This document shows positions 13,216 to 33,716 of a DNA stretch of 64,000 nt, piece after piece. This DNA comes from Nitrospira japonica. Lineage in GTDB: Bacteria > Nitrospirota > Nitrospiria > Nitrospirales > Nitrospiraceae. Under the pieces are notes generated by a model. It searched no databases, was not told the origin of the DNA, and saw only the letters and a program-made list of their open reading frames with translations. The DNA lies in NCBI RefSeq assembly GCF_900169565.1, contig NZ_LT828648.1:558001-622000 (forward strand). The letters run 5' to 3'. Numbering within the stretch: position 1 is the first letter of the stretch; every line of letters starts with the position of its first letter. The position numbers and the translations under genes were made by a program.

Positions 13216-13291
<76 letters not shown>

Positions 13292-13305: not shown

Positions 13306-14508
13306 TTAGGTGGGTAAACTCGTCGCCGCTTCGCGAGAAGCGGTGGCTGGTGTTATTACAGTGTTAGCGGCATCCAACACGTTCACCCGATGCACCTCTC
13401 CGCTCGGAATCCATCTCGCGTAATACTTCAGCGTGATCGTCGGCTTAGTATGTCCCAATTGGTGGCTGACATAGAGCAATGGGACATTCGACGATAGGAG
13501 TAAGGACGCGAAGGTATGTCGGAGATCGTACACTCGGAATCTCGGCAAGCCTGCAGCGTCTAGCACCCGGTGAAACGCTCTCACGACATGGCTCTCATCC
13601 AGAAGGCCTCCTGAAAGAGACGGGAAGAGCCAATCCGATGCCTTCCCCCGAGCAATGTCCTCAGCCCGTAGGTGCGTGAGGTAAGACTCCAGCTCGGCCA
13701 GTATCCCATCCGACAAATCCACCCATCGTGATTCACCGGTTTTGGTACTCTTGATCTGCCCCTCCAGCGTTGCCGACCGCTCCACTCGTACCCGGCGCCC
13801 CACGAAATCGATATCGCCAGGCTGTAATGCTCGTCCCTCACTGGGGCGGAGACCTGTCTTAAGGTACGTGCGGAATAGCATGGTATAGGAACGGGACAGC
13901 GATTGGCTTTCCTCCAACTCATCAAGTTTCGTTTCAAATGCTTCTTTCTGCTGCCAGGTCAGCGGATCCACGTCAGGAGCTATTGTTTGCCCTGCGCGAC
14001 GCTTTCGCCTTTGACCAAGTAGCGGGTTCACGGCGATGACCCCTTCCTCCGCCGCATCGGTCAGCATTGACGAGAGAACAGCCCGAATAATGCGTGTCGT
14101 ATCAGCCGAGCATCCTGCCTGCTGCTTAACATTCAGCATGGCCCTCACATTGGCCCAGCCAAGTGCAGCGACAGCTTGTCCTCCTAAAGCGGGCTCAATG
14201 TACAGTCTCACGATCTGACTGTAACTGGAATGGGTTCTGGCGGCTAAATTCACCTTTGAACTTTTCAACCACCGCTGACAATAGTCCCTGACGGTGATGG
14301 GCACAGTTGGGACTTCCGTGCTCATCCCCTGCAGCAACTTCGTCTTGATGATGGCTTCCTGTTTCCGCGCCTCCTCCTTGTTCTTGCATCCAACCTTCCA
14401 CCGCTTGAGCTTACCTACCGACAAGTTTGGCGCGAGCCTAAGCGTCTTCCCGTCAACGAGGACTGGAAATTCAACATAATAACTATCCTTCCGTTTGGTC
14501 AGTCCCAT
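13306..14508 (-). CDS. Tyrosine recombinase / integrase of the island
   Basis: A 400-residue phage-type integrase. It has an N-terminal arm-binding part (MGLTKRKDSYYVEF), a SAM-like core-binding domain around 70-175, and a catalytic domain. Catalytic signatures are Arg in TGLRPSEGRAL, Lys-strand STKTGESRWVDL, YDLRHTFASLLL (the box HxxR with Tyr in the first place, a common phage variant), HQLGH, and the nucleophile in KYYARW. It ends 15 bp from attL and reads toward the tRNA, the usual layout. It should excise and insert the island at the tRNA-Lys repeat. The preceding XRE gene stops only 4 bp upstream. Confidence 0.95.
   Translation of the reverse strand: MGLTKRKDSYYVEFPVLVDGKTLRLAPNLSVGKLKRWKVGCKNKEEARKQEAIIKTKLLQGMSTEVPTVPITVRDYCQRWLKSSKVNLAARTHSSYSQIVRLYIEPALGGQAVAALGWANVRAMLNVKQQAGCSADTTRIIRAVLSSMLTDAAEEGVIAVNPLLGQRRKRRAGQTIAPDVDPLTWQQKEAFETKLDELEESQSLSRSYTMLFRTYLKTGLRPSEGRALQPGDIDFVGRRVRVERSATLEGQIKSTKTGESRWVDLSDGILAELESYLTHLRAEDIARGKASDWLFPSLSGGLLDESHVVRAFHRVLDAAGLPRFRVYDLRHTFASLLLSSNVPLLYVSHQLGHTKPTITLKYYARWIPSGEVHRVNVLDAANTVITPATASREAATSLPT
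13347..13370. promoter_or_regulatory. Candidate integrase arm-type sites, left end
   Basis: Two GTGTT cores at 13350 and 13361, exactly 11 bp apart, lie 56 bp inside attL within the end of the integrase gene. The 24-bp segment matches the right-end segment 33519-33542 at 20 of 24 positions. The equal spacing and presence at both ends suggest integrase arm binding; inferred. Confidence 0.5.
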
Positions 14509-14757: not shown

Positions 14758-14988
14758 TCAAGAGGCTAGAACCTGGAAGGGTCGATGCACTTTGACGGAC
14801 TTCGACGCGATCCATTTGTCTATTTCCACTCGATCGAACTTGGTGAGACGCCCCAATTTGATATGAGGAATGCGCCGTTTGCTGACCATCGCATATAAGG
14901 TATGGACGGACAGCCCGGTATACACCGCGACATCCTGAATGGAGAGCAGCCGCCGTGTGATGGGCGTTGTCTCAGCTGTCAGAGCCAT
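14758..14988 (-). CDS. Excisionase-type helix-turn-helix protein
   Basis: A 76-residue winged-helix protein of the excisionase / MerR-like group (LLSIQDVAVYTGLSVHTLYAMVSKRRIPHIKLGRLTKFDRVEIDKWI). Such proteins direct integrase toward excision or act as AlpA-like activators. It overlaps the end of the preceding gene by 17 bp and precedes XRE and int, consistent with a recombination-directionality role. Confidence 0.82.
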   Translation of the reverse strand: MALTAETTPITRRLLSIQDVAVYTGLSVHTLYAMVSKRRIPHIKLGRLTKFDRVEIDKWIASKSVKVHRPFQVLAS

Positions 14989-15475
14989 CCGTCTCGTTTC
15001 CTGAGTGATCGACCAACGATCCGGTCACGGTGATTGGTGCATTGACGACCGGTGGGGGTGTGCGGTTGATCGTGATCGTCACCGCCGTATCTTGCTCAAT
15101 GTGTTGCTTGGGGCCGTAGAGCTTCGGTCGGCGCCGTTCGAGCATCCAGAGCCAATAGCGGACTTCCTCTCTCCCGCGCGCGAGGCCAAGCACATCGGAG
15201 GCGTTCACCATCCGATCTTTCGCCTGAATCGCGTTCTCGACGAGGTAATCCGTCACCATCTGCCCGAACTCCGTATCCCCATGTCCCGCTAAGGCCCACT
15301 TCTCCAGCCGTTGGCGGACCGCTTCATCGGTGACGCCGTAACTCTGTCCGATCAACTTGAGCGATTCGCCGGCACGATACCGGGCGGCAATCGCGGCCAG
15401 GTCATCAGCTGGAATCCGACCCGGCTTCACGGGGGCGTTCTCAGGGTTGGGGTGTGTCACGATCTCAGATGCCAT
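14972..15475 (-). CDS. Terminase-small-subunit-like HTH protein
   Basis: A 167-residue protein with an N-terminal homeodomain-like HTH (DLAAIAARYRAGESLKLIGQSYGVTDEAVRQRLEKW) and a C-terminal section with LARGREEVRYWLWMLERRRPKLYGPKQHIEQ. The W.LERR.P..YG.K pattern is what I associate with phage terminase small subunits and related packaging HTH proteins. No large terminase is present. If the call is right, it would recognise packaging sites or redirect a helper phage. It could also be a plain regulator. Confidence 0.5.
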   Translation of the reverse strand: MASEIVTHPNPENAPVKPGRIPADDLAAIAARYRAGESLKLIGQSYGVTDEAVRQRLEKWALAGHGDTEFGQMVTDYLVENAIQAKDRMVNASDVLGLARGREEVRYWLWMLERRRPKLYGPKQHIEQDTAVTITINRTPPPVVNAPITVTGSLVDHSGNETDGSDS

Positions 15476-15487
15476 GCGTGCTCCTTC

Positions 15488-15757
15488 TCAGCACCAGACT
15501 GGGTACGCTTCGATGCGCTCTTTAATCCCGCCGTCCACTTTGGCTTGGATGCGAGCCACGTGGAGCCGCCAGATATCCTCATTCTTTTTCACGTACGCCC
15601 AGGTACACCGTCCGATGTCCCACTCAATTTCAAGCCATTGCACGTCACCCTGTTGCAGCGGGCTGACGAGGTACATCAGCCGGATTATTCGGCCGTTCCA
15701 CACGCTGGGAAGCCCAGGCTTCTCAGGTTCTGGAAACTCAAACCAGTGCTTAGTCAT
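15488..15757 (-). CDS. Hypothetical protein (89 aa)
   Basis: No family recognised. A Trp-rich small protein (MTKHWFEFPEPEKPG, VQWLEIEWDIGRCTWAYVKKNEDIWRL). It overlaps the end of the PAPS-reductase-like gene by 4 bp, so it is probably co-translated with it within the replication/packaging module. Confidence 0.6.
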   Translation of the reverse strand: MTKHWFEFPEPEKPGLPSVWNGRIIRLMYLVSPLQQGDVQWLEIEWDIGRCTWAYVKKNEDIWRLHVARIQAKVDGGIKERIEAYPVWC

Positions 15758-16521
15758 GCGAGGCTCTCCACAATGGGAGCGGCCGGGGGCTCAGGAACTG
15801 GGAGTCCTAAGGCGTCTTGAATAGCCGAATAGAGGGCGTTATTGCGGATGGCGTACTGCGCGTATCGCTCTGGGTAGTGCTCACGCAACCAGGGGATGAA
15901 TTCCGTCGTTTCTTGGACAAAGGCCGTACAGTCGAAGCAGTCGAGGGAAGAACTCTGGGGCACGGCGTAGTAGTGGGCCGGGACTTCCATGACCGTCTCG
16001 AGGTAGTCGAGCACGTCCTGCTCACTCCAATCGTGAATGGGGCAGAGTTGGGTCATCTCCTCGAACGGCATAACCGCCTGTGTCATGGCGTTCTTGTGTT
16101 CGTCCGCGCGGGATCCGCTGACGAGATGCGTGACGCTCAGTGAGATGGCTTTGTCCCAGAGCGGCTTGTTGACGTTCTCAAAATGGCACTGGCGATAACT
16201 CTGAATCGTGACAGGCTTCCTGCCAGTGAATTGCTGGCCGAAGGAGGTGTAATCGATCGGGACGACATCGGCGGGAATGCCTTCACGGGCGTTCTGCCCC
16301 TTCCGGTCGGTCCGCACGACATGCATGGGAACGAGGGCGCGCGCGTAGGTGACGCACTCGAGGGTCTCCGGCAGGGTGAAGCCGGTATCCACAAAAATGG
16401 CAAAGCTGAGCCGGTCGCGAAGGAGATGCAGACAGGCCATGCTGTCTTTCCCGCCGGAGAAGGCCAGGCCAATGACGGCGGATTCCGGGATCTGGTTGAC
16501 GGATTCGTGAAGGGGCTTCAT
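15754..16521 (-). CDS. PAPS-reductase-family PP-loop protein (phage type)
   Basis: A 255-residue adenine-nucleotide alpha-hydrolase-fold protein. The PP-loop SGGKDSMACLHLL (about 23-35) binds ATP or a nucleotide. Later boxes are VDTGFTLPETLE, GSRADEHKN and CPIHDWSEQDVLDYL, with Cys at CFDCTAF. Cellular PAPS reductases end in a Cys-containing catalytic tail that is not evident here. Similar proteins occur in many phages and islands next to replication genes and in DNA-modification settings such as DndC, but the substrate is unknown. Overlaps of 4 bp on both sides place it inside the replication operon. Confidence 0.8.
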   Translation of the reverse strand: MKPLHESVNQIPESAVIGLAFSGGKDSMACLHLLRDRLSFAIFVDTGFTLPETLECVTYARALVPMHVVRTDRKGQNAREGIPADVVPIDYTSFGQQFTGRKPVTIQSYRQCHFENVNKPLWDKAISLSVTHLVSGSRADEHKNAMTQAVMPFEEMTQLCPIHDWSEQDVLDYLETVMEVPAHYYAVPQSSSLDCFDCTAFVQETTEFIPWLREHYPERYAQYAIRNNALYSAIQDALGLPVPEPPAAPIVESLA

Positions 16522-21121: not shown

Positions 21122-22267
21122 TCATCCGGGCCAATCGGTAGCGGGATCCCGCTGTGTCTGCGGCGGCGCTGGTGGCATCTCTACGGGCTCGGCTGACGGC
21201 TGAGGTTCCCGCCGGGTGCGTGGCCTCGTGGGTCGTGGGCCTGCCGTGGGTGGTGGGGTCATGTTGTGGAGATTCATAATCGTGTCGGCTTGGGCATCGA
21301 CGGCCGACCGGACGCTATTCACATCGAGTCGTGCATAGATGTGCACGTGTTGTAAATCGCTATGTCCTAAGGCCTTGGCAATGACCGATGAGCTCGTCCC
21401 ACCCATCGCCAAGTAGCTTGCAAATGTTCTTCTCAAATCGTGGATCGTGCAGTCTGGTAGATGGGCGCGGGTCCGGATGCGCTTCCAGGTATTAAAGACA
21501 TACATTTCCTTCCAGCGACCCAAGTTATGGGGCGCTTCAAATACCCACGTGTTGAGACGGGGCAATCGATCGAGAAACGGAATCAGGGTCCTCGGGAGTG
21601 GCGTCGTTTGGGGCTTGCGATTCTTCACCGTGCCGGCCGGCTTATGCCAGAGCCCGTTGACCAGATCCAGGTCCTTCCACTGCATGCGTTGCAGTTCTCC
21701 TTTGCGACAGCCGGTCAGCAGGACCGTCAGGAAGAAGGCCCGTATATCGTCCGGTTCCTGATTCAGGACGACCAGCAGACGGCGGAGCTCCTCACCGGGC
21801 TGGACAAAACGAGTCCGAAATTGCCTCGGGGGCTTGGGAATGCGGGACGCGGGATTCTGGCCGGACCAGACGCCCCAATCGATCGCTTTGTAAAAGATCG
21901 CCGTGATGAGTTTGAGCGACATGCGAGCGACCGTGGGGGAATGTTTGGCGAGTTCTGTTGAGAAATGCAGCAAGACATTGCGGGTGATCAGCTCAGGTTT
22001 GAGCGGCACCAGCGGACCGAAGTGTTTGTTGAGCCGACAGTCAATGACAAGGCGGGTAGCCTCGGCGAAATTCACCATGTGGTAGCGCCGGTAGAGTTCG
22101 ATCCATTCTCGAAAGCACCACGTCGCCTTGCACCGCCGCCAGAGCTCAGCGTCATCCGGCTCGGGAAAGCGATGGCCGGCCAGACAGGCGGTTTCGTATG
22201 CCTCCTGTATCGTATTCAGCGCGGGAAGCGTGGCCTCCATTGGTTCATCCAGTAGGTGCGCGTGCAT
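21122..22267 (-). CDS. Second tyrosine recombinase
   Basis: A 381-residue tyrosine recombinase different from the one at the left end. Catalytic signatures are Arg in LTGCRKGELQRMQW, KNRKPQTTPLP, HDLRRTFASYLAMGG (HxxR), ALGHSDLQHV, and Tyr in HIYARLD. The C-terminal 60 residues are a Pro/Arg-rich tail (PPPTAGPRPTRPRTRRE) not needed for catalysis. It lies about 8 kb inside the island with no obvious repeat of its own, so it may mark a nested or fused element. Translation may start at the internal MEATLP instead. Confidence 0.93.
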   Translation of the reverse strand: MHAHLLDEPMEATLPALNTIQEAYETACLAGHRFPEPDDAELWRRCKATWCFREWIELYRRYHMVNFAEATRLVIDCRLNKHFGPLVPLKPELITRNVLLHFSTELAKHSPTVARMSLKLITAIFYKAIDWGVWSGQNPASRIPKPPRQFRTRFVQPGEELRRLLVVLNQEPDDIRAFFLTVLLTGCRKGELQRMQWKDLDLVNGLWHKPAGTVKNRKPQTTPLPRTLIPFLDRLPRLNTWVFEAPHNLGRWKEMYVFNTWKRIRTRAHLPDCTIHDLRRTFASYLAMGGTSSSVIAKALGHSDLQHVHIYARLDVNSVRSAVDAQADTIMNLHNMTPPPTAGPRPTRPRTRREPQPSAEPVEMPPAPPQTQRDPATDWPG

Positions 22268-22279
22268 AGTGTTCCTCCT

Positions 22280-22465
22280 TCACAGACCCGCCGTGGGCTT
22301 TGGTCGTCGGGCCTCAATAAGCAAGCGTTCCAAGCGGCCCAACTCGACGGCGCCTCTTCCGATCTTCGATTGCAGCCGAAACCCTCTCCCGCCCACCATG
22401 CGGCCGTTGATCTTGACCATCCGCCCGTGGTCGTTACTGGGACTGCGAAATTGGCGAAAGTTCAT
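22280..22465 (-). CDS. Small basic hypothetical protein (61 aa)
   Basis: No family recognised; Arg/Gly-rich (MVKINGRMVGGRGFRL). Its ATG overlaps the stop of the upstream gene in an ATGA arrangement, and the second recombinase gene follows 13 bp later, so it is probably translated in the same operon. Confidence 0.5.
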   Translation of the reverse strand: MNFRQFRSPSNDHGRMVKINGRMVGGRGFRLQSKIGRGAVELGRLERLLIEARRPKPTAGL

Positions 22466-22854
22466 GCGGCGACCCCGTTGGCTCTTGCCTTCCTCCTAGC
22501 CGCGACCTGCGGCAATGGTTCAGCATTATTGAAGGCCTCGCAGGCACCCTGAATGAGGACGTGGATCGTGGAAGACTCTTCAAGTTCTGAGAGCACCTCC
22601 TCAAGACACACCCGCACCTGATCCGCAGGAATAGGTTCGCTTCCTTTCGCGGCCGTCAGCAGCAGGCCCAGCTGACTGACCACTTGTTGCAGAATGTCAC
22701 TGGCGAGGTTCGCTTCACGAGCCAGCTCTGCGACGCCCGTGCTCCCATCGCGGCCGTCCTCGATGATTCCATTAGGCCAGGCGTAGACGATACGCCCCTG
22801 CAATTTCAGCTCAGCTTCGCCATAGTTTTTCCTGACAACAGCTACATTTCCCAT
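22462..22854 (-). CDS. Hypothetical protein (130 aa)
   Basis: No family recognised. Helical, acidic centre (GVAELAREANLASDILQQVVSQLGLLLTAAKG, QVRVCLEEVLSELEESSTIHVLIQGACEAF), basic tail. A GGAGGG-type ribosome site precedes the ATG. It lies between the small ribbon-helix-helix gene and the recombinase on one strand. Confidence 0.6.
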   Translation of the reverse strand: MGNVAVVRKNYGEAELKLQGRIVYAWPNGIIEDGRDGSTGVAELAREANLASDILQQVVSQLGLLLTAAKGSEPIPADQVRVCLEEVLSELEESSTIHVLIQGACEAFNNAEPLPQVAARRKARANGVAA

Positions 22855-22880: not shown

Positions 22881-23021
22881 CTACGCTGCCCGCTTTCCAC
22901 TGAAATGATTTTCCAGTAGAAACCTGATAAGCCCCGATGCGGTGGTGCCTTGCCGACGTTCGGCGTCTAGCTTGGCTTTAAGTTTTGCTGGGATTTGAAT
23001 CACGATGCGGTCCATCTTCAT
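22881..23021 (-). CDS. Ribbon-helix-helix protein (46 aa)
   Basis: A very short CopG/Arc-type regulator: MKMDRIVIQIPAKLKAKLDA forms the beta strand and first helix, and TTASGLIRFLLENHF the second helix. GGAGGT lies 5 bp before the ATG. It is divergent from another RHH-like gene at 23200, and tandem 10-bp repeats lie in the shared gap. RHH dimers bind such repeats; it probably represses its own promoter and that of the recombinase operon downstream. Confidence 0.75.
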   Translation of the reverse strand: MKMDRIVIQIPAKLKAKLDAERRQGTTASGLIRFLLENHFSGKRAA

Positions 23022-23076
23022 GGTAACCTCCGTAAGCACTGCGATAGAGCGTGCTAACGTCTAATGTAACATACTC

Positions 23077-23096
23077 TAGCAAGTGATAGCAAGTGC
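23077..23096. promoter_or_regulatory. Tandem 10-bp repeat, candidate RHH operator
   Basis: TAGCAAGTGA followed directly by TAGCAAGTGC, about 55 bp before the 46-residue RHH gene. One helical turn between the repeats is the classic spacing for cooperative RHH dimer binding. A separate short inverted repeat, GGTGTG-N4-CACACC at 23153-23168, lies nearer the divergent gene. Confidence 0.5.
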
Positions 23097-23199
23097 TGTT
23101 TGCAAGAGAATGAGGAGTTGTGAAAACAGTGTTAAACGCGGTAAACAGGTGAGGTGTGGTGTCACACCATGCCCTACAATGAAGGACATTGTCTGACAT

Positions 23200-23388
23200 A
23201 TGGCCCCCAAGACAAACCCCGATAAGCCTGCTCATCTAAACGTTCGCGATATTCCACGGGAAACGCTTTTCCGCCTCAAAATGGCGGCCGCTGCCGAGCA
23301 GAAGACTGTTAAGGATCTCGTCCTGGAGCTGGTGCACGAAAAGATTCAGGAGTTGGAGCGTAAGGGGTTGCTGCCGAGGCTCAAGTAA
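23200..23388 (+). CDS. Ribbon-helix-helix-like small protein (62 aa)
   Basis: HLNVRDIPRETLFRLKMAAAAEQKTVKDLVLELVHEKIQEL has the strand-helix-helix layout of Arc/FitA-type antitoxins and regulators. No toxin gene follows directly; the next gene encodes an unrelated 76-residue protein. It shares a divergent promoter region with the minus-strand RHH gene. Confidence 0.65.
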   Translation: MAPKTNPDKPAHLNVRDIPRETLFRLKMAAAAEQKTVKDLVLELVHEKIQELERKGLLPRLK

Positions 23389-33670: not shown

Positions 33671-33716
33671 ACTCTTAATCAGCGGGCCGTAGGTTCGACC
33701 CCTACACGGCCCACCA
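33671..33716 (+). repeat. attR: 46-bp direct repeat of tRNA-Lys 3' half
   Basis: Exact copy of 13246-13291, ending in CCA. Only the 3' half of the tRNA is here, with no 5' half upstream, so it is not a functional tRNA gene. Confidence 0.95.

Follow-up and report, generated by a model that had tools for sequence, protein, structure and literature searches.

Comparison across Nitrospira and its relatives indicates that a pair of very small genes facing each other, here named RHH46 and RHH62 after the ribbon-helix-helix (RHH) class and the length of their products in residues, is a recurring control module beside the integrases of mobile DNA. These two facing mini-repressors probably decide when the mobile DNA moves. 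The reading that we prefer, with reasonable though not high confidence, is that the pair stands at the head of a mobile-element recombination module as its regulatory part, in which RHH62 would repress the operon of RHH46 and the integrase gene (int) and RHH46 would either oppose RHH62 or assist Int. We analysed the pair in a 64,000-nucleotide stretch (the window) of the genome of Nitrospira japonica, which is a single contig of 4.08 Mb; coordinates without a genome label refer to this window.

Two small facing genes in a tRNA-Lys island

RHH46 occupies positions 22881-23021 of the minus strand, as the first gene of a recombinase operon, and its ATG at 23021 has a good ribosome-binding site, GGAGG, 5 bases ahead of it. 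The initial annotation had described this 46-residue gene as easily overlooked, and the comparison of homologues indicates that it is a true gene under purifying selection: 49 pairs of homologues with at least 80% amino acid identity have a median dN/dS of 0.054 and substitutions distributed as 248/90/725 over the three codon positions, and the differences between the window gene and that of the closest relative (G002) are distributed as 12/6/23. RHH62 lies on the plus strand (23200-23388), and both open reading frames are placed as had been annotated, facing each other across 178 bp (23022-23199).

The assignment of both proteins to the RHH class is based on evidence that is weak but consistent. 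RHH46 as a single sequence matches the Pfam model RHH_5 at E 0.0068, under the gathering score, and one of 14 family members matches RHH_1 at E <=0.01; a profile search by sequence with the family found no RHH structure. Its monomer model (mean pLDDT 80.3) has two helices, and a fold search with this model returned two weak matches, both to RHH-antitoxin entries, so that RHH46 is taken as an RHH protein more by pattern than by score. RHH62 is Arc/FitA-like, with a match to FitA-like_RHH at E 0.0041 (again under the gathering score), a model that 5 of 16 members match at E <=0.01. It also matches an Arc-like repressor in PHROG (E 6.7e-5), and its family profile finds VapB12 (7e4j) at E 4.6e-5. 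The top Foldseek matches of its monomer model (mean pLDDT 82.8), namely VapB12, ParG, Arc and PutA, are all RHH proteins; no Foldseek match has E <0.001 and the leading RHH ones have E >0.1. In the models of both proteins the two helices stand behind an N-terminal segment; the strand, formed only in the dimer, is unassigned there.

Beyond the RHH domain, RHH62 has a conserved C-terminal tail, LERKGxLPK (in the window at 23350-23385), which is nearly invariant among homologues as LE..G.LPK and is kept also in copies without RHH46. It is a possible partner-binding motif. Such a tail would suit a reading in which RHH46 and RHH62 are type II antitoxins left without a toxin and stand beside int by coincidence, as would the antitoxin identity (FitA, ParD, BrnA, RelB) of the families that they weakly match. 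In the window, however, we recognised no toxin-like gene behind RHH46 or RHH62, and among 20 neighbourhoods compared there was no recurrent gene cluster past RHH62, the recurrent neighbour being the recombinase. As an adjacent toxin was found neither in the window nor in these neighbourhoods, we rejected this reading as very improbable.

The pair lies in an island of 20.5 kb (13246-33716) with a G+C content of 0.55, against 0.61 and 0.58 outside. Repeat comparison delimits the island by an exact 46-bp repeat on the plus strand, formed by the 3' end of a tRNA-Lys gene at attL (13246-13291) and the identical 46 bp at attR (33671-33716). At attL, homology identifies a 400-residue integrase (13306-14508, minus strand), followed on the same strand by an excisionase-like helix-turn-helix (HTH) protein of 76 residues (14758-14988; phrog_66, E 2e-9) and a terminase-small-subunit-like protein (14972-15475; phrog_1482, E 5.8e-5; Sf6_terminase, E 0.002, below the cut-off). 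A DnaB-like helicase, a helicase loader and an AlpA-like protein are encoded in the interior, with the replication genes on the int strand; RHH62 is followed by a gene of 81 residues and then by cargo. No capsid or tail genes were recognised among the island proteins scanned, and the island is possibly a phage satellite or a decayed prophage with cargo. The cargo includes Ysc84, SNase, DUF2971 and DUF3800 proteins, and a phosphoadenosine phosphosulfate reductase-like gene is found at 15754-16521.

The operon headed by RHH46 continues on the minus strand with two genes for which Pfam and PHROG scans found no family (130 residues, 22462-22854; 61 residues, 22280-22465) and, 613 bp from RHH46, a second tyrosine recombinase of 381 residues (21122-22267). 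The initial annotation had linked the pair to a recombinase operon. This holds in that a recombinase is encoded in the operon of the 46-residue gene, but the enzyme is the second recombinase, which lies with the pair mid-island, and not the attachment-site integrase. We also considered the pair as regulator of the attachment integrase (13306-14508), which is not supported, given that this integrase is more than 8 kb away and has its own excisionase-like gene.

Recurrence of the pair and its association with recombinases

A search of 175 family genomes for relatives of RHH62 gave 86 matches (E <=1e-5), spread over 53 of them, and 76 of these places were examined, the other 10 being among the weaker matches. 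At 50 of the 74 loci with at least 400 bp upstream, a homologue of RHH46 lies divergently, at a distance of 102-193 bp between the two matches, and at none of the 74 does it lie on the same strand, which agrees with the initial proposal that the two regulators are linked. RHH46 was not detected nearby for the remaining 24. Where at least 3.5 kb of sequence was available upstream, 30 of 38 facing pairs have a tyrosine or serine recombinase gene at up to that distance on the strand of RHH46, compared with 3 of 13 unpaired RHH62 loci with long flanks; by our count, 22 of the 38 and 4 of the 13 also have a tRNA gene on the int side at no more than 4 kb. Among 36 recombinase-bearing pairs, 16 have an int reading frame that starts 3 bp past the RHH46 stop codon and 20 have one at a spacing of -1 to 49 bp. 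In the nearest relative, G002, there is no recombinase within 6 kb of the pair.

In wider profile searches, RHH62 was found in 76 of 269 genomes of the class and RHH46 in 75 of 395 genomes of the phylum, all of the latter within one order. A scan of a collection of 84,980 species with strict patterns gave 16 loci, all in Nitrospira, Nitrospirae or Nitrospirales metagenome-assembled genomes. Searches with tblastn found no match in 50,697 phage records for the window RHH62 or an RHH46 query, nor in 72,556 plasmids for the RHH46 query. Among viral contigs, one relative was found with the RHH62 alignment and none with the single 62-residue query.

When 14 RHH46 loci without RHH62 (L115, L138-L143 and L145-L151) were examined, each of them had, in the same place, a divergent gene of another small family (type II, with the motif ...LNDLIEEAIRDLLKKY...), whose aligned members measure 55-61 residues. 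All ten type II partners tested against Pfam match at least one RHH-type model (E <=0.0058) and two pass the RHH_3 cut-off. Judged by coordinates, 62 of 118 RHH46 matches are faced by a partner at no more than 260 bp (41 RHH62, 21 type II, none on the same strand); among the best 56 of the 118, 54 face one or the other family, and the unpaired ones are mainly one weaker match per genome. It is unusual for a facing partner to be swapped in this way, one RHH family taking the place of another. A paralogue of RHH46 outside the pairs is located at G000:C1:3433452-3433580, with about one weaker match per genome in many other genomes. This unpaired paralogue occurs in all seven genomes of the genus and is possibly a domesticated copy.

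Two elements are informative. The single-contig genome G131 has the module in a complete integrative element of very small size (L154, 6.8 kb, G131:C1:1649550 to ~1656339), bounded by exact 46-bp repeats of a tRNA-Arg end (1649550 and 1656294) and encoding an integrase, RHH46, RHH62, two primase-like proteins and proteins without family. We recognised in it no DNA-binding regulator other than RHH46 and RHH62, and no excisionase. The IMG/VR contig L116 carries a tRNA-Leu gene, an integrase, RHH46, RHH62 and a tail tape-measure protein, and therefore the module also belongs to a phage. For a further element, in G068, attR was not found nearby: the genome has three copies of the tRNA end, the nearest other one about 475 kb off.

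RHH46 could also be a recombination directionality factor (RDF, or excisionase) of RHH fold, with RHH62 as the switch repressor, so that the module would set both the transcription of int and the direction of recombination. RHH46 adjoins int, as expected for such a factor, and the two are probably coupled in translation, being 3 bp apart in 16 of 36 pairs, although two genes intervene in the window; the G131 element has no recognisable excisionase; and direct repeats one helical turn apart, such as those in the gap between the two genes, are the usual pattern of RDF sites. On the other hand, excisionase-like HTH proteins are present in the window island and some kilobases off in other elements, and the HTH_17 proteins found ~5-11 kb away in several elements weaken the argument from a missing excisionase. 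RHH46 moreover accompanies both tyrosine and serine recombinases, which would be unexpected for an Int-specific factor and argues for a transcriptional role. We regard an RDF as improbable. RHH46 may still have an accessory role for Int, because the one-turn repeats recall RDF sites such as those of Apl of phage 186, which is reported to be both an RDF and a promoter regulator (PMC7498355). A doubtful, more elaborate reading would be a self-contained excision switch specific to this order and made of RHH proteins only, with a constant RHH46 as both transcription regulator and RDF and a swappable repressor (RHH62 or type II). If this were true, elements could differ in immunity, each acquiring a specificity of its own when repressor cassette and operator are swapped together.

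Boxes and putative promoters between the two genes

The gap carries TAGCAAGTGATAGCAAGTGC at 23077-23096, composed of two tandem 10-bp copies, TAGCAAGTGA (23077-23086) and TAGCAAGTGC (23087-23096). At the first copy, CTAGCAAGTGATAG agrees, as counted by eye, with the palindrome CTATCATATGATAG of other clades in 11 of 14 bases; at the second, the relative G013 has a full palindrome, ATAGCA-AG-TGCTAT. The initial annotation had pointed out these tandem repeats, which are indeed present and, in addition, conserved along with the 62-residue gene. The sequence TAGCAAGTG occurs in the window as these two copies only, repeated at a period of 10 bp (0.12 expected), and the extended tandem pattern has one site in the genome at <=3 mismatches. 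Among the 175 family genomes the pattern is found in three, always upstream of one of the three closest 62-residue homologues, and at the two other loci bearing it RHH62 is 92% and 86% identical but RHH46 merely ~60%. It is the position of the pattern and not its count that we take as evidence, because a control with the reversed pattern had matches in 5 of the 175 genomes.

These repeats overlap a putative promoter of RHH46 and int (23064-23092, minus strand), identified by alignment with relatives and weakly matching the consensus: TTGCTA (23092-23087), a 17-bp spacer and TTACAT (23069-23064). The second tandem copy would thus be its -35 box, and over its predicted -10 box lies a near-palindrome, ATGTAACAT (23064-23072), which is conserved in G002 (as ATGTTACAT) and G013 and to which we ascribe a regulatory function tentatively. 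On the plus strand, TACAAT (23175-23180), conserved in G002, is the candidate -10 box of RHH62. A scan of the window gap for consensus promoters found none.

Another sequence to which the initial annotation had drawn attention, the palindrome GGTGTG-N4-CACACC, is present at 23153-23168, but the idea that it might be an operator had to be abandoned: an equally good inverted repeat occurs in 18% of shuffles of the gap, i.e. at chance level, and the palindrome is absent from the gaps of the two closest relatives, G002 and G013.

The 50 gaps between facing RHH46 and RHH62 genes (median 111.5 bp) have a usual order: the RHH46 start, its ribosome site, often a palindrome (e.g. CTATCATATGATAG), TGTCAA, ~7 bp, TTGAC, a box resembling TGCTAGGCT and the RHH62 start. 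Pairs of -35-like hexamers placed back to back were found in 33 of these 50 gaps, which are related sequences and not independent, compared with 8.0 expected in shuffles, and in 29 the hexamers are 6-7 bp apart; in 17 of the 50 no canonical pair was found. A palindrome equalled by no more than 5% of the gap's own shuffles (p <=0.05) is present in 21 of the 50. The tandem repeat of the window fits into this common frame. Two overlapping promoters set back to back are the likely geometry of the gap, and this suggests that the polymerase could serve one side at a time.

Boxes lying in the RHH46 promoter might be read by either protein. RHH genes are often autoregulated, and RHH46 could be an autorepressor of its own operon that reads the tandem repeat and the palindromes, with RHH62 controlling something else or forming heterodimers with RHH46. 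Apart from the position of the boxes, this would be consistent with the many loci where RHH46 adjoins int and with repeats, noted by eye, at the corresponding place in front of RHH46 homologues that face a type II partner. We consider it unlikely, as the operator sequence tracks RHH62 and not RHH46. In 42 non-redundant pairs, the half of the gap on the side of the RHH46 promoter covaries with RHH62 when RHH46 is taken into account (partial r 0.38-0.40, 0 of 1000 permutations), compared with a partial r of 0.07-0.08 for RHH46 when RHH62 is taken into account (p 0.16 and 0.07); in all 50 pairs both covariations are significant, RHH62 being the stronger (0.49 vs 0.26). Swap cases agree with this: G127 and G117 have nearly identical RHH62 proteins, different RHH46 proteins and common TGATAT half-sites, and G116 and G117 have similar RHH46 proteins, different RHH62 proteins and different sites. 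The comparative data hence point to RHH62 as the protein whose sequence tracks the repeats and palindromes. Co-inheritance of the gap with the RHH62 gene, instead of recognition, is a fair alternative, because the RHH62-proximal half of the gap behaves alike (0.28-0.36).

A proposed switch and its relation to known systems

In the model that we prefer, the pair regulates a recombination module from its head: RHH46 is the first gene of an operon ending in a site-specific recombinase, and RHH62, alone on the opposite strand, would be a dedicated repressor. We propose that RHH62 dimers, stacked on one face of the helix, bind the tandem or palindromic boxes overlapping the -35 and -10 boxes of RHH46-int, so that little Int would be made as long as the element stays integrated. 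With the -35 boxes of the back-to-back promoters ~7 bp apart, RNA polymerase could hold only one promoter at a time, and once RHH62 activity is lost transcription would flip to RHH46-int. RHH46, made together with Int, would then repress the RHH62 promoter in a Cro-like manner or assist Int on the DNA. The bistability or cross-repression put forward in the initial annotation would be a possible property of such a pair. In favour of the model, the sequences show the divergent arrangement and its recurrence, the linkage to int, the coding status of RHH46 and conserved boxes, and the covariation with RHH62, the small G131 element and the viral contig agree with it. Counting against it are the poor fit of the window promoters to the consensus and the 17 gaps without a canonical -35 pair, the covariation of the RHH62-proximal half, the 24 RHH62 homologues for which RHH46 was not detected (with a recombinase in the corresponding place at 3 of the 13 with long flanks), the 613 bp and two genes between RHH46 and the recombinase in the window, and the G002 pair.

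Such a switch would give two very small families, whose members are mostly below Pfam thresholds, a testable role in the control of integrases of mobile elements. Nitrospira and its relatives are key nitrite oxidisers of which few phages have been studied, and the DNA signature described here (facing RHH genes, back-to-back -35 boxes, int and a tRNA gene) can be used to locate such elements. The loci also offer a natural set of matched repressor-operator pairs with which to study RHH specificity and the evolution of immunity types.

An RHH pair as control box beside an integrase appears not to have been described previously: we found no description in the literature searched, which covered neither bioRxiv preprints nor most subscription papers. 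Related by class are the repressors Arc and Mnt of phage P22, RHH62 being Arc-like by PHROG. These and other RHH repressors are short proteins with operators of tandem half-sites. We know of no head-to-head pairing of P22 Arc and Mnt upstream of an integrase.

In arrangement, the module resembles the phage-inducible chromosomal islands (PICIs), which are reported to have a divergent regulator pair (Stl/Rpr and partner) with int beside one partner (PMC6092414). Both have the divergent pair near the end of an island at a tRNA gene or att site, with int in the direction of one partner, and some module-bearing islands have primase and terS genes. The window island, too, occupies an att site and has an integrase gene at one of its ends (the 46-bp repeats and the integrase at 13306-14508). 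The module differs from these islands in that it pairs two small RHH proteins, that neither a helper phage nor a master repressor is known for it, and that the partner opposite int, RHH62, does not lead the replication genes, the replication genes right of RHH62 being on the opposite strand in several islands; in the window island, xis and replication genes are not co-transcribed with RHH62 as they would be in a PICI.

With the CI/Cro-type and pR-pL switches that temperate phages use, that of Apl in phage 186 among them, the module has in common facing promoters, operators inside promoters, one-turn repeats and regulation near int. It is without the HTH fold of CI/Cro or Xis, and unlike the face-to-face promoters of phage 186 (PMC7498355) its putative promoters are divergent and back to back, with adjacent -35 boxes. 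TprA of the integrative and conjugative element PAPI-1 is likewise an Arc-like RHH regulator that an integrated element encodes, and is reported to control the pil2 operon promoter (PMC8565334); the module, by our proposal, would instead act on the int operon through a facing RHH partner. We regard the module as an RHH version of the known switch made of a divergent repressor pair and int.
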